A stretch of DNA of 51,661 nucleotides, taken from positions 1-51,661 of the forward strand of contig DAHXMJ010000001.1 of assembly GCA_027365525.1 (NCBI GenBank). Reading direction: 5' to 3'. Position 1 is the stretch's first letter. Each line of letters starts with the position of its first letter. The notes beneath the pieces are model-generated. The model was not told the DNA's origin. It saw nothing but the letters and a program-made list of their open reading frames with translations, and did not search any database. A program made the translations under genes and the position numbers. Origin of the DNA: Acidithiobacillus sp. Its GTDB lineage: Bacteria > Pseudomonadota > Gammaproteobacteria > Acidithiobacillales > Acidithiobacillaceae. Positions 18,312-24,336 of the stretch are shown here, one piece after another.

Positions 18312-19059
18312 AGAAGGAGTACAAAGAGAACATCTTTGAACAGGGTTTAAGTAGTATAATATCTTAATATCATCTTAGTCAACAGCATGTCTCTTCCATG
18401 CACTGAGCCTGCAGGAACTGGGCTGGGATCTTCGAAACATGATTGTGACATCCAAGGCCCTGCTCTGACTTCACTGGCAGGACAACGCTTTGTCTTCCTC
18501 GCAGGTCCTCTCCTAGTCCGGGAGATCTCCCGTGATGCTGGCCGGAGAAAGTACCTGGCATTCTCCTGGACGAGATATCCCAGCCTGACTGCAGATTCGG
18601 ACGACCAGCGACTGTCACTGTCACCATCCCCCTTTCCAAGCCTGCCGGATCTACTATTACCACCCCAATACCGTAGCTGCACAATATCCTGCTGCGAGCA
18701 ATTTCCCGTCTTCTCCGTACGCATGGACCGCTGCCTAAAGCTGTGCCGCTGTCATCAGTTTCATGCCCGAGCCTGCTAGCCTCCACTGTTATGATGGCTG
18801 CCGGATTTTCCGGAATGATGCAGGCCAGAATCTCCAGCTTCGGACACCATGAGCATCCCCTTCCCTATTTTTCAGCATGCCAGAACCCACAATGCCTGCC
18901 AGTTTCCAGGATTATGGGGTTGATGCCCTTAGAGACCAGTTTCTCCCGTACGCTCCTTTTTCACACCTAAATGCATGAAAACTTTTCAACGAAAAACAGC
19001 CCATGTGTGGCCCAAAAATTGCTCACTATCTTAATGGCAGCAATTCGGAGAAACGTGCA
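18312..19059. other. Stretch without a recognisable gene, upstream of a terminator
   Basis: About 750 nt. Minus-strand frames at 18347-18724 (125 codons) and 18379-18786 (135 codons) end near the terminator, but their translations look low in coding quality and have weak ribosome sites. TATAAT occurs on plus at about 18355-18360 without a convincing -35. It may encode a small RNA or a degraded gene. Confidence 0.4.
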
Positions 19060-20052
19060 ATGAACCGATTCGAACATTTTCATGAAATGCGCGCTGACCT
19101 GCTGACCCTTCTGGGAGGTATGGTGGAAACCGTAGCCAGCCCGGCCATCTTTGAGCAGGATCCGGCAGGACAGCGGAGGATACTTGCAGCACTCATCCAC
19201 CGATACTCTTTTCTCGACCTTGCTTATCTTCTGGATGCCCATGGCGTCCAGGTAGGCGACAACGTTGCTGCAAGGCGCCTTTCCCGGGAACGTGGAGGTG
19301 CGGACACGGACCGCCGCCATCGTCCCTATTACCGGCTGGCACGTGAGGCCACTACTCCCATTCTGACAGATCCTTACCTCTCTCTTACCAATGGACGGCT
19401 CTGCATTACCATTGCTGCTCCAGTACGCATGGAAGACGGCCAGTTTATGGGAATGGTGGTAGCAGACTGCGAGCTGGAGAGGGCACTGGCCCTTCTCGAA
19501 GAAGACGATACACGGCGCAGCGTTGAACCAGCTTTCAAATTCTTCTACCTGCTTTTTTCTGCAGGCCTCCTTCTGGTCAGCGTCTCTCTCGGAATGAGGG
19601 GCTTTCTTGCAGTGCACGACATCTGGCGTATGACCCAGCCACTTCAGGATTTTGACGCCCCTTTCCAGGCCACCATCTTTTTTACCCTGGCTCTGGCAGT
19701 ATTCGATTTGGCCAAGACAATCTTTGAAGAAGAAGTTCTGCTGCGCAAGGATATCCGCCGGCACAGCAGCACCCGCCGCACACTTACCAGGTTTATTGCG
19801 GCCATTTCCATTGCTGTGTCCATTGAAGGGCTGATGCTGGTGTTCAAATTTGCCCTGAATGCTCCAGGGGAACTCTGGCTTGCAGTTCTCATTCTGGTAG
19901 CGGCTGCAGGACTAGTGGTGGCTTTGGGCCTGTACGTTTATCTCGGGGTCCGTGCAGAAATTCTGCTTCTGGAACAGAGGCAGCGCAGCAGCAGGCATCC
20001 CTTTTCGCTTCCGCAGAAGGAAATCCAGGAACAGTCCGGCCAGTGGGGATAG
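19060..20052 (+). CDS. Membrane protein with a PDC/Cache-like sensor domain
   Basis: About 330 residues. The N-terminal 150 residues resemble a PDC sensor domain (RPYYRLAREATTPILTDPYLS, then ITIAAPVRMEDGQFMGMVVADC, the usual 'latest strand' of such domains). Four or more hydrophobic segments follow from about residue 165. No kinase, GGDEF or methyl-accepting module follows, so it is not a full receptor. An acidic and arginine-rich loop (FEEEVLLRKDIRRH) sits between membrane parts. The start at 19060 (MNRFEHFH) has GGAG 9 nt before. The ligand is unknown. Confidence 0.7.
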   Translation: MNRFEHFHEMRADLLTLLGGMVETVASPAIFEQDPAGQRRILAALIHRYSFLDLAYLLDAHGVQVGDNVAARRLSRERGGADTDRRHRPYYRLAREATTPILTDPYLSLTNGRLCITIAAPVRMEDGQFMGMVVADCELERALALLEEDDTRRSVEPAFKFFYLLFSAGLLLVSVSLGMRGFLAVHDIWRMTQPLQDFDAPFQATIFFTLALAVFDLAKTIFEEEVLLRKDIRRHSSTRRTLTRFIAAISIAVSIEGLMLVFKFALNAPGELWLAVLILVAAAGLVVALGLYVYLGVRAEILLLEQRQRSSRHPFSLPQKEIQEQSGQWG

Positions 20053-20160: not shown

Positions 20161-21153
20161 TCAGGACTGCGAGGCACCGATGGTCTCCGGCAGTACCGCC
20201 TCCCCCCACAGGCCTGTTTCCCGGAAATGGAAATAGGTGCTCTCAATGCTATGATGGAGCACGGCCAGATTTTTCTGGGTCTGGTCCAGATATTCATGTA
20301 AAAGACTCGGATGCAGTCCCTGCAGCTGCATCCTTTCCAGGCGCAGCCGGATGTGGCCCAGGGTTTCGGCCGGCATGGCTGAATTGGGCAGATAGGACAG
20401 GGCCATTTCCATATCTGCGAAACAGCTGTGGATGCTACGTGGAAACTTGCTGTCCCGCAGCAGAAAATCCACTACGCGGTCCGGGCGGATCTGGACTTCG
20501 ACATGGTGCCTGTACATCTCGAGTGCGCTCATGGCACGTAGGACTCCTACCCAGACGGACTGGATGACCGCATCATGAAGACTGGGATCGCTCGGCATGA
20601 TCACGGCGGTGGTTACATCCACGATTCGGCTGGTCATGTCGGCACGCTCGATGTTGCGCCCCAGCTTGATGAACTGGTAGGCGTGATTCTGGCTCATGCT
20701 GCCCACCAGAAGACCCACCAGAGCATGGCGGCGGGAAATGACCTCGTTCAGAAAGGAAAGCCGCTCCCGCCGGTCCAGCACAGCCTGCTGTTCAACACCT
20801 TCCTGCACAAAGAGATAGAGGGAATTGATCCTTTCCCAGAATTCTCCTGGTAGCAGGTTCCGGAAAACACGGCAGTTCTCCCGGGCCTGGTGTATGGCCG
20901 CCACGATGGAACTGGGATGCCTTCTGTCCGCTATCAGAAACCGCATGATGTGCTCTTCGGAGGGTTTACCATAGTGGGTCTGGTAATACCCGCCCTCACC
21001 GGTTACCTGGAGCAGCAGGTCCCACCCGAACCTGGTTCCGTGCGGGAGATCCAGCAGCAGAAGCGTGGTGGAATTGATCAGGCGACCCATATCCTCGGCA
21101 CGCTCCAGATAGCGGGCCATCCAGTACAGGTTTTCCGCTACTCTGGAGAGCAT
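20161..21153 (-). CDS. Alpha-E domain protein (DUF403), Anbu-cluster member
   Basis: About 330 mostly helical residues. The opening SRVAENLYWMARYLERAEDM is the alpha-E signature. The family lies almost always next to a circularly permuted ATP-grasp protein and is thought to take part in making or modifying a peptide, with no proven reaction. The ATG at 21153 follows GGAGGAG; it overlaps the ATP-grasp gene by 16 nt, so translation is coupled. The same region holds the Anbu peptidase gene, which supports the functional link. Confidence 0.88.
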   Translation of the reverse strand: MLSRVAENLYWMARYLERAEDMGRLINSTTLLLLDLPHGTRFGWDLLLQVTGEGGYYQTHYGKPSEEHIMRFLIADRRHPSSIVAAIHQARENCRVFRNLLPGEFWERINSLYLFVQEGVEQQAVLDRRERLSFLNEVISRRHALVGLLVGSMSQNHAYQFIKLGRNIERADMTSRIVDVTTAVIMPSDPSLHDAVIQSVWVGVLRAMSALEMYRHHVEVQIRPDRVVDFLLRDSKFPRSIHSCFADMEMALSYLPNSAMPAETLGHIRLRLERMQLQGLHPSLLHEYLDQTQKNLAVLHHSIESTYFHFRETGLWGEAVLPETIGASQS

Positions 21154-22598
21154 GCCGGCTCCTCCTCGACAATCCACGTATCTTTGCTGCCCCCTCCCTG
21201 GGAACTGTTTACCACCAGGGATCCGGCATGCATGGCCACTCGCGTTAACCCTCCTGTAGTTACATGAATTTTTTTCCCCTGCAGGATAAACGGTCGCAGA
21301 TCCAGGTGGCGAGGTTCCAGCGAATCCCCCATGAATGTAGGCGCCGTGGAGAGATTGAGCACCGGCTGGGCAATATAGTTGCGGGGGTTGCTCCGGATCA
21401 GCATGGAAAAGTGTTCCCGGTCCGCCACAGTAGCCCTGGGCCCGATCAGCATTCCATATCCCCCGGATTCATTGGCTGGTTTGACCACCAGTTCATGGAG
21501 ATGGGCCAGGACATACTCCCGGTCTTTTTCACGCATACAGAGATAGGTGGGCACATTGGGAAGCAGTGGTTCCGTATCCAGGTAATAGCGGATTATGTCG
21601 GGCACAAAAGAGTAAACAACCTTGTCATCAGCTACACCTGTACCGGGAGCATTGGCAATGGCTACACGTCCACGCCGCCAGGCCCGCATCAGTCCAGGAA
21701 TGCCTAGAACGGAATCCTCACGGAAGACTTCGGGATCCAGAAAATCGTCGTCTATCCGGCGGTAGATGACATCTACCCGTTTCAGGCCAGCAATGGTTCG
21801 CAGGTAGACATAATCGTCCTCCACACAGAAATCTGGTCCTTCTGCAAGCCATGCTCCCATCTGCTGTGCCAGATAGCTGTGTTCGAAATAGGCGGAGTTG
21901 TAGATCCCCGGTGTCAGGACTGCAATGACAGGATTATCTCCTTCCCGGGGGGAAAGCGCGGCAAGAGTTTCATGGAGCCTTGCTGGATAGTCGTCTACAG
22001 GCAAAATCTGGCAGTGGGCGAAAATTTCCGGGAACAGACGCTTCATGATTTCCCGGTTTTCCAGCATGTAGGACACCCCGGATGGCACTCTCAGGTTATC
22101 TTCCAGCACATAGACAGTACCATCTGCATCCCGGACCAGGTCTGTACCACAGATGCTGGCCCATACACTGTGGGGTGGATGAATCCCCCGGCAGGCATCC
22201 CGCAGGTTGGATCCAGCCAGGACCTCTTCTGGAAAAACGCCATCTGCAACGATGCGCTGGCCGTGGTAAAGGTCATCAATAAAAAGGTTTAACGCCTGCA
22301 GCCGCTGGCGGAGTCCTGCGTCAATGCGTACCCACTCGGAGCGGGGCATGGTCCTGGGCACAATGTCAAAAGGCCAGGCACGGTCGATATTGCCTGCTTC
22401 GTTGTACACCGTGAAGGTAATCCCCATGGCAAGAATGGCGGCTTCTGCTGCCTGGCGGCGTGCCCTGAGGTTTTCCGGTCCCAGCGAGTCGAGATGCTCA
22501 AGAAGGGAAGCAGCAGCAGGGCGTACCTGGCCATTAGGCTGAATCAGTTCGTCGTAGGCCGTGCTGGCCTGATAATAGAGATTCCTCAGTCCTGCCAT
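21138..22598 (-). CDS. Circularly permuted ATP-grasp protein (DUF404/DUF407)
   Basis: About 486 residues. Typical blocks are YELIQPNG-like YDELIQPNGQVRP near the N-terminus, DLVRDADGTVYVLEDNLRVP SGVSYMLENR in the middle, then VVKPANESGGYGMLIGP, the permuted ATP-grasp glycine loop. It probably forms peptide (amide) bonds using ATP, acting with the alpha-E protein. The start at 22598 (MAGLRNLY) has GGAGAAACGGGA before it; the longer frame begins upstream of the predicted transcript start. The sigma-54 type promoter at 22671-22686 lies about 60-70 nt upstream. Confidence 0.9.
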   Translation of the reverse strand: MAGLRNLYYQASTAYDELIQPNGQVRPAAASLLEHLDSLGPENLRARRQAAEAAILAMGITFTVYNEAGNIDRAWPFDIVPRTMPRSEWVRIDAGLRQRLQALNLFIDDLYHGQRIVADGVFPEEVLAGSNLRDACRGIHPPHSVWASICGTDLVRDADGTVYVLEDNLRVPSGVSYMLENREIMKRLFPEIFAHCQILPVDDYPARLHETLAALSPREGDNPVIAVLTPGIYNSAYFEHSYLAQQMGAWLAEGPDFCVEDDYVYLRTIAGLKRVDVIYRRIDDDFLDPEVFREDSVLGIPGLMRAWRRGRVAIANAPGTGVADDKVVYSFVPDIIRYYLDTEPLLPNVPTYLCMREKDREYVLAHLHELVVKPANESGGYGMLIGPRATVADREHFSMLIRSNPRNYIAQPVLNLSTAPTFMGDSLEPRHLDLRPFILQGKKIHVTTGGLTRVAMHAGSLVVNSSQGGGSKDTWIVEEEPACSPE

Positions 22599-22670
22599 TC
22601 CCGTTTCTCCCGATATCCCGCAATTGCAGGGCTTTTCTTTATGAAACGCCCTGACACCCAGAAGGGTTTC

Positions 22671-22686
22671 AGCAAGGTGTATGCCA
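22671..22686 (-). promoter_or_regulatory. Sigma-54 promoter candidate for ATP-grasp/alpha-E operon
   Basis: On the minus strand TGGCATACACCTTGCT fits TGGCAC-N5-TTGCW with the invariant GG (-24) and GC (-12) in exact register. Transcription would start near 22660, leaving a leader of about 60 nt. Two NtrC-type sites lie upstream, centred about 83 and 104 nt from the predicted start. Confidence 0.75.
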
Positions 22687-22734
22687 GGAAGAATTGGCGG
22701 AATCATCGTCAGAAATAGATATACAACAATATTT

Positions 22735-22771
22735 ATGCACTATAATAGTGCATTTAGCACTAAAAAGGTGC
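22735..22771. promoter_or_regulatory. Tandem NtrC-type activator sites
   Basis: Site 1, TGCACTATAATAGTGCA (22735-22751), is a perfect palindrome matching TGCAC-N7-GTGCA. Site 2 (22757-22771) is GCAC-N7-GTGC. Their centres are 21 bp apart, two helical turns, as expected for cooperative enhancer binding. They sit upstream of the 22671 promoter and downstream of the Anbu gene. Confidence 0.7.
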
Positions 22772-22810
22772 GGGTACTGCTAGAGAAAATATGTCAGACT
22801 TTCGAGATAT

Positions 22811-23536
22811 TTATTCCCAGGGAAACACTGGGAGAGCATCCATGGCAACGGCAAGTCCCTGGCTCCAGGAATCGGCCACAGACCGGTAGAAAGGATCATC
22901 ATCCGCAAGATTCAGATACTCTCCCGGCTCAAGACTCCCGTTCCTGTAGAACAGCAGCTCTATTGGAGCACCTACCATCAGGTTGCTCCGGATGGTGGAG
23001 TTCATGGAGACCAGGGCACATCGCCCAGCCTTTTCCAGGGGAAGTGCAGAATGCACCACCCGGTCCAGAATTGGCTTTCCATACTTTATTTCGCCGACCT
23101 GCAGGAAAGGATGTTCTGCCGATTCATGGATATAGTTTCCTTGGGGATAGACCAGATAGATGCCTGGAACCTCTCCCTGAATCTGTCCTCCGAGAATAAA
23201 TGTGGCCTCAAAAACCGTACTGGCGGCATCCCGGCTGGACTGGTTTCGCTGGATATCTGCACTGATCATCCCGATATAGTCTGCAGCTGCCACCAGGGTG
23301 GGTACCGTCCACAAGCTTAGTCTTCCAGGCTGCGCGGTATCCTGGCGCAGCCGCTGCAGTACGGCCTGGGTAGTGGCGAGGTTGCCAGATGAAAGAAGGC
23401 AGAAAAACCGTTTCCCCGGACAGACAAACGTATGCATTTTAGAGTAGACATTAATATGGTCGGTACCTGCACTGGTACGTGAGTCGGAACAGAAAACCAG
23501 TCCATCCTCCACATGGATGGCCAAGGCATAGGTCAT
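22811..23536 (-). CDS. Anbu proteasome-like peptidase
   Basis: About 241 residues, the size of Anbu (ancestral beta subunit). An N-terminal Thr2 follows Met1 (MTYALAIHVEDGLVFCSDSR), consistent with the proteasome-type catalytic threonine, and the SDSRTSAG block matches the family. The C-terminal part has AGRCALVSMNSTIRSNLMVG and the GAPIELLFYR segment. It is predicted to be an oligomeric cytoplasmic protease of unknown substrate. It is the promoter-proximal gene of the set Anbu, ATP-grasp, alpha-E; the transglutaminase-like gene often found with these is absent from the window. Confidence 0.9.
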   Translation of the reverse strand: MTYALAIHVEDGLVFCSDSRTSAGTDHINVYSKMHTFVCPGKRFFCLLSSGNLATTQAVLQRLRQDTAQPGRLSLWTVPTLVAAADYIGMISADIQRNQSSRDAASTVFEATFILGGQIQGEVPGIYLVYPQGNYIHESAEHPFLQVGEIKYGKPILDRVVHSALPLEKAGRCALVSMNSTIRSNLMVGAPIELLFYRNGSLEPGEYLNLADDDPFYRSVADSWSQGLAVAMDALPVFPWE

Positions 23537-23603
23537 CTAGCGTTCCTCATGAAAATTGATATCCCCAATATTCGCCCACTTCCGCCAGCGTGTGAAGTGC
23601 TTC

Positions 23604-23619
23604 AGCAACTTGCATGCCA
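23604..23619 (-). promoter_or_regulatory. Sigma-54 promoter candidate for the Anbu gene
   Basis: Minus strand TGGCATGCAAGTTGCT: -24 TGGCATG and -12 TTGCT in exact spacing. Predicted start near 23593, about 57 nt before the ATG at 23536. It is nearly identical in its conserved bases to the promoter at 22671-22686. I see no clear NtrC-type site in the 130 nt upstream of it. Confidence 0.75.
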
Positions 23620-23976
23620 TGTAGAAAGAATTTCGGCTGCCCAAAATGCTTAAGATGCAGATCAAGCGCAACACTGTTTATTTCCTGCAGACAGCTGCCT
23701 GAATGAGGCAGGGTGTGGAAAAAAGGAATGACATGGTCTCAGATAGGATAAGAACCCGATCGTTTAGCACATCAAGGAAATACGCCAAATTCTGCTGTGA
23801 GTCGCTTCCCTGTGGCAATTTCGGGTTAGATGATCCGCAACCAGATTGGCTTACCCCAATAGGGAATGGCTGCCGCAGAGGTGAACCGCCCGGGTTTTGA
23901 GCGATCAGGCCCTGATCCATCACTCAGACAGGGGATCACAAGACGGATTCAACAGGTCGTCGCAACACCATCAATC

Positions 23977-24336
23977 ATGGAGGTGTTTATGGGACGGCCT
24001 GCGGGATGGATACAGAAGTTGACGGGGCGAGAAGCAATGCGCTCGCCAGGGGCGCCTTCACTTCGGCGTGAGGTTGAGCGGCAGTTTTGGGTACAAATTG
24101 CAACGGGAATCACCAGTGAGCGCGCTGCCGAGACGGTCAGCGGTCTATACAGGGCCGAAGTCACCCATCAGCGAGGCCCCTGGAAATCCGCCGATGCGGT
24201 CGAATGGGCCACCCTTGAATGGATGTCATGGTTCAACAATCAACGTCTGATGGAATCCTTGGGCTATATCCCGCACGCAGAAGCTGGGGCAAACTGCTAC
24301 CGGCAACTCAGGCAACCAACCTCCGTTGCCGATTAA
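23977..24336 (+). pseudogene. Chimeric transposase remnant (IS30-type start fused to IS3-type end)
   Basis: The first part (GRPAGWIQKLTGREAMRSPG, then SLRREVERQFWVQIATGITSE) is the N-terminus of an IS30-family transposase. The last part (RGPWKSADAVEWATLEWM, then WFNNQRLMESLGYIPHAEA) is the C-terminus of an IS3-family OrfB. Both are in one frame, joined near 24130-24150, and both lack the rest of their DDE domain. It cannot be an active transposase. The frame is open upstream to 23866. The junction probably records an insertion or deletion between two elements. Confidence 0.8.

Follow-up and report, generated by a model that had tools for sequence, protein, structure and literature searches.

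The window, the whole stretch of 51,661 nt of Acidithiobacillus DNA that was analysed, carries on its minus strand a gene for Anbu accompanied by genes for a circularly permuted ATP-grasp protein of type 2 and an alpha-E protein (Table 1), with the linked ATP-grasp and alpha-E genes standing beside Anbu as they do in the Anbu gene set. The predicted Anbu protein retains Thr2, Asp18 and Lys33 (T1, D17 and K32 of the mature form), which correspond to the catalytic Thr, Asp and Lys; the catalytic residues of Anbu are named in PMC6376114. The first ATG of the ATP-grasp reading frame (22706) overlaps the sigma-54 promoter described below. As many ATP-grasp homologues align in tblastn searches only from about residue 33-45 onward, the real start is most likely the ATG at 22598, 62 nt past the predicted transcription start. 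The start of the alpha-E gene overlaps the end of the ATP-grasp gene, and the two are probably translationally coupled.

Table 1. Genes and candidate regulatory elements of the Anbu locus (window coordinates)
Feature	Position	Strand	Evidence or remark
alpha-E gene	20161-21153	-	PF04168, 279 bits, full length
ATP-grasp gene (circularly permuted ATP-grasp type 2)	21138-22598	-	PF14403, 534 bits, full length
Sigma-54 (-24/-12) promoter of the ATP-grasp/alpha-E unit, TGGCATACACCTTGCT	22686-22671	-	perfect match; predicted +1 at 22660
NtrC-type enhancer site, proximal, TGCACTATAATAGTGCA core	22737-22751		perfect; 65 nt 5' of the -24 element; same position in sister species G303
NtrC-type enhancer site, distal, GCACTAAAAAGGTGC (minus strand GCACCTTTTTAGTGC)	22757-22771		perfect
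Anbu gene	22811-23536	-	matches solved Anbu structures 5LOY/5LOX/5NYW/5NYJ, E 1e-54 to 1e-70
Candidate sigma-70-like core promoter of Anbu (CTTC...GCGAATAT block)	23596-23567	-	position conserved in family
Sigma-54-like site 5' of Anbu, TGGCATGCAAGTTGCT	23619-23604	-	lineage-specific; without activator site; predicted +1 at 23593

A transglutaminase gene is present in 24 of the 29 family genomes searched, mostly adjoining alpha-E. None was found in the window's own assembly (G000, 62% complete) or in that of the sister species (G303, 91% complete), and none lies 3' of alpha-E at the sister locus L010. Its absence from G303 and from the incomplete window assembly suggests that the transglutaminase is dispensable for keeping the promoter. 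In the window (19003-20052) and in G303, related convergent genes with a Cache-like domain take its place. On the other side of the cluster, 330 bp 5' of Anbu, a remnant reading frame (23866-24336) joins an unrelated N-terminus to the C-terminus of an IS3-family transposase, and this remnant may have displaced older regulatory DNA upstream of Anbu.

The ATP-grasp promoter and its probable regulators

The sequence-only reading had placed TGGCAT-N5-TTGCT elements in exact -24/-12 register upstream of both the Anbu and the ATP-grasp genes. Both are indeed perfect, and TGGCATACACCTTGCT and TGGCATGCAAGTTGCT are the sole zero-mismatch matches to TGGCAYN5TTGCW in the window, where a dinucleotide Markov model predicts 0.22; the predicted starts of Table 1 follow from their -12 positions. 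The ATP-grasp element has the GG and GC at exact spacing, and 5' of it lie two perfect GCACN7GTGC sites, 20 bp apart from start to start and not 21 bp as first read. The pairing of such sites, originally ascribed to the locus as a whole, holds for the ATP-grasp promoter but not for that of Anbu, where the best NtrC-like match within 1 kb upstream has at least two mismatches. NifA sites (TGTN10ACA) were found near neither promoter, the Anbu side having been covered to 500 nt upstream. An exact sigma-54 match accompanied, no more than 150 nt upstream, by a perfect NtrC site appeared in none of 300 windows simulated under the Markov model. Across the assembly (1.37 Mb, 62% complete) the extended palindrome TGCACN7GTGCA occurs once, as the proximal site, and exact sigma-54 matches occur eight times.

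The two regulators on which this reading depends are both encoded in the genome: rpoN is intact, and the ntrC product scores 707 bits, over both curated NtrC cut-offs of NCBIfam and far under the NtrX cut-off. The remaining exact sigma-54 sites lie 5' of ntrB, nifB, nifH and three less clear genes, these names having been assigned by inspecting translations; the less clear cases are a short cysteine-rich ORF (G000 C9:8051), an OpgG-like gene (C36:3840) and a small secreted-protein-like ORF (C59:55278). Among all exact matches in the assembly, only those of ntrB and ATP-grasp are combined with an NtrC site, which in the case of ntrB is a perfect GCACCAAACTGGTGC 112 nt upstream. In Escherichia coli, promoters of the glnA/ntrBC type carry GCACN7GTGC enhancers upstream of the -24/-12 element; the ATP-grasp promoter shares this architecture, which is also found at ntrB of the same genome. 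No canonical site was detected upstream of amtB or in the 156 nt readable upstream of glnK before the contig ends, and glnA is represented by a 3' fragment only. With these readable upstream regions devoid of sites and the assembly 62% complete, the Ntr regulon is only partly visible here.

Comparison with relatives separates the two promoters. The -24/-12 element before ATP-grasp is kept in all six congeners having the locus (G299-G303 and G305), there with CGGCAY where the window has TGGCAY; NtrC-like sites accompany it in 6/6. Aligning this intergenic region across seven congeners leaves the GGCA box, the CTTGC box and an NtrC half-site as almost the sole conserved blocks. A strict sigma-54 match lies within 300 nt 5' of ATP-grasp in 24/25 family loci. 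All 26 family promoters, the window's among them, have no farther than 215 nt upstream an NtrC site that deviates from the consensus in one position or none (2.3 expected from shuffles), and 21 of them have a second site at a spacing of 20-21 or 41-43 bp (1.2 expected; maximum 7 in 1000 shuffles), these loci being related and the counts thus not independent; a recognisable phased partner is absent from the other five. Spacings of this kind would correspond to two or four helical turns, as dimers bound on one face would need. General sequence similarity does not account for the pattern, because both the distance from site to promoter and the intergenic length vary among the family loci. Conservation of the promoter bases in close relatives, which had been proposed as a check, was thus borne out for ATP-grasp but not for Anbu, whose perfect site (23604-23619) recurs in none of the six congeners.

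These features make it highly probable that the region between Anbu and ATP-grasp contains a classical NtrC-activated sigma-54 promoter serving the ATP-grasp/alpha-E unit, with Anbu transcribed mainly from a sigma-70-like promoter. Under nitrogen limitation NtrB would phosphorylate NtrC, whose dimers are predicted to occupy, along a single helical face, both GCACN7GTGC sites at about 77-112 bp 5' of the start. The bound NtrC would then oligomerise and loop to the sigma-54 polymerase at -24/-12, switching on ATP-grasp and alpha-E from about 22660, and the gene products would make or modify and hydrolyse amide or peptide bonds under nitrogen shortage.

Transcription of Anbu and competing readings

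Upstream of Anbu a CTTC...TAT block keeps an almost fixed position relative to the ATG (about -65) in 23/25 family loci, a count that is purely descriptive because the pattern was defined after viewing the alignment. In the window it overlaps the sigma-70-like match listed in Table 1, and we infer that Anbu is transcribed mainly from this conserved promoter, some 60 nt before its ATG. The sigma-54 site before Anbu appears to be lineage-specific and may or may not work.

A different possibility, the one put forward in the sequence-only reading, is that both promoters are active sigma-54/NtrC promoters, that of Anbu perhaps being served by the downstream enhancers at 22737-22771, some 830 bp away, or by sites lost to the insertion-sequence remnant. 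The Anbu site is a perfect 16-mer with a sensible leader of 57 nt, and the Markov rate gives an estimated chance of roughly 1-2% that a perfect sigma-54 site would fall in any upstream region of the window. Sigma-54-like sites also precede Anbu at loci L013 and L254 (CGGCATTGATATTGCT) and L177 (TGGCATCATTGTTGCT), and in Pseudomonas putida PP_2685 is itself nitrogen responsive (PMC8050072). Against this, the sister G303, whose Anbu is 87% identical, has near the same place only a degenerate TAGCATGAAATTTGCG, no activator site of either type was found within the distances given above, and the frequency of sigma-54-like sites upstream of Anbu (6/79, 1/75 and 1/24) is close to the background of about 4%. 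We regard joint control as a serious contender, though a somewhat doubtful one.

The remaining alternatives concern the ATP-grasp promoter itself. That the sigma-54 promoter is real but answers to NifA, NtrX or another homologue instead of NtrC is improbable: several other enhancer-binding proteins are encoded in the genome, one of them beside the nif genes, but the paired sites fit the NtrC consensus, the same site recurs at the ntrB promoter of this genome, and TGTN10ACA is missing near either promoter. Still less credit can be given to the palindromes being terminator hairpins of Anbu and not protein-binding sites. The proximal one did score as terminator-like (ATGCACTATTATAGTGCAT then AAATATTGTT), but such matches are no more frequent than in shuffles (3 versus 3.0), the inner seven bases are non-complementary in the distal site and in many homologous sites, GCACN7GTGC also occurs 5' of ntrB, where no gene ends, and phasing at 20-21 or 41-43 bp is unexpected of terminators; we rejected the terminator reading on these grounds. 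Functionless chance matches are the most improbable of all, for although the Markov rate predicts a few perfect sigma-54 matches, taken by themselves, in any genome, and eight were observed, conservation and phasing in 24-26 family loci lie far above shuffles and contradict chance in the case of the ATP-grasp promoter.

The sequence-only reading had treated Anbu, ATP-grasp and alpha-E together as a nitrogen-starvation response. Judged by its regulation, such a response is likely for ATP-grasp and alpha-E, in view of rpoN, ntrC, the conserved phased sites and the counterparts elsewhere, but this does not extend to Anbu, with its site missing from congeners and rates near background.

Wider distribution, ntrBC linkage and known systems

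Under the strict rule applied to the family, a sigma-54-like site lies within 300 nt 5' of ATP-grasp in 54/65 wider loci (genome_contigs set) and in 16/62 of a phylum-wide sample; the background for other ORFs of those loci is 43/1028 (4.2%), with 0/64 for alpha-E. The family set overlaps the 80-locus set. In many loci of beta-proteobacteria the gene next after Anbu encodes a large transglutaminase and carries a sigma-54 site of its own, such a site preceding a separate transglutaminase unit in 18/46 beta loci. The sigma-54 promoter thus tracks the heads of transcription units despite differing gene order. Many beta loci outside Acidithiobacillia have the sigma-54 site, but GCACN7GTGC is rarely recognisable there, and for this reason the activator may differ.

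In Acidithiobacillus-type loci (L013, L015-L026 and L080) ntrB-ntrC is directly divergent from Anbu, and a perfect NtrC palindrome, GCACCATAATAGTGC, is invariant between them in all except L013. On the Anbu side of this intergenic region no sigma-54 promoter was found in Acidithiobacillus, again except in L013. The invariant TGCACCATAATAGTGCA of this region fits instead an ntrB-side promoter, TGGTGYGYTTTTTGCT, the candidate ntrB sigma-54 site of these loci. Elsewhere, ntrBC is divergent from the ATP-grasp unit at the Sideroxydans locus L071, and an amtB-like gene lies upstream of the cluster in the congener locus L011. A 2025 survey of sigma factors in Acidithiobacillia, the main text of which mentions neither proteases nor ATP-grasp, stated that ntrB-ntrC lacks nitrogen-metabolism genes in its vicinity (PMC12194929); in contrast, the Anbu gene set directly adjoins ntrB-ntrC in Acidithiobacillus.

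The tie of this gene set to nitrogen limitation in other bacteria, raised in the sequence-only reading, proved well founded. In P. putida, nitrogen limitation induces PP_2685 and PP_2688, and PMC7801951 and PMC8050072, citing Hervas 2008/2009, place them under NtrB/NtrC; the structural papers PMC5666114 and PMC6376114 also cite nitrogen/NtrC control of the P. putida genes. In Burkholderia cenocepacia H111, the transglutaminase-containing cluster I35_5080-83 needs NtrC and sigma-54 under nitrogen limitation (PMC5491218), and a 2025 sigma-54 survey lists the COG3484 proteasome-type protease in a cluster enriched in the alpha, beta and gamma classes (PMC12316311). The P. putida Anbu operon PP_2685-PP_2688 comprises the same gene families as the window under the type of regulation proposed here, but there ATP-grasp (PP_2688) and Anbu (PP_2685) are separated by the transglutaminase gene PP_2686, whereas the window has Anbu in first place and a distinct promoter for ATP-grasp, and its species yielded no transglutaminase. 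The B. cenocepacia cluster resembles our proposal in its NtrC and sigma-54 dependence; its host is a beta-proteobacterium, and PMC5491218 does not name Anbu. In view of the P. putida and B. cenocepacia work, NtrC/sigma-54 regulation of the gene set is already known. The present analysis adds the occurrence of the ATP-grasp promoter and its phased NtrC sites across the family, its distinctness from the promoter of Anbu and the ntrBC linkage; neither the family-wide conservation nor the ntrBC adjacency is reported in the literature that we searched. As for biochemistry, YbAnbu showed no peptidase activity, and the ATP-grasp protein of its operon releases phosphate from ATP (PMC6376114).

It is conceivable, and we offer it tentatively as a proposal with nearly even prospects, that Anbu, ATP-grasp and alpha-E, with or without the transglutaminase, belong to the core of the Ntr regulon in Pseudomonadota, as a module whose transcription units have retained a sigma-54 promoter while genes were rearranged and which in Acidithiobacillus is an overlooked nitrogen-linked neighbour of ntrBC. 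If so, the chemistry of a core Ntr module would be that of nitrogen scavenging or nitrogen storage. Provided that the set does form amide bonds, its induction by nitrogen shortage could serve to tag, store or recycle amino compounds. To our knowledge, Anbu is a proteasome relative with no known substrate, partner or demonstrated peptidase activity. The conserved NtrC/sigma-54 switch and the ntrBC linkage point to nitrogen starvation as the time to seek its function, the most tightly switched part appearing to be ATP-grasp/alpha-E rather than Anbu.

Two further observations emerged from the survey. A contig binned as Methylacidiphilaceae (Verrucomicrobiota) bears an Acidithiobacillus-like Anbu cluster (L014), a placement that is probably a binning error. 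Multiple Anbu genes per genome or tandem Anbu pairs per locus occur in G311 (L271), L061, L071, L074, L086 and L087.
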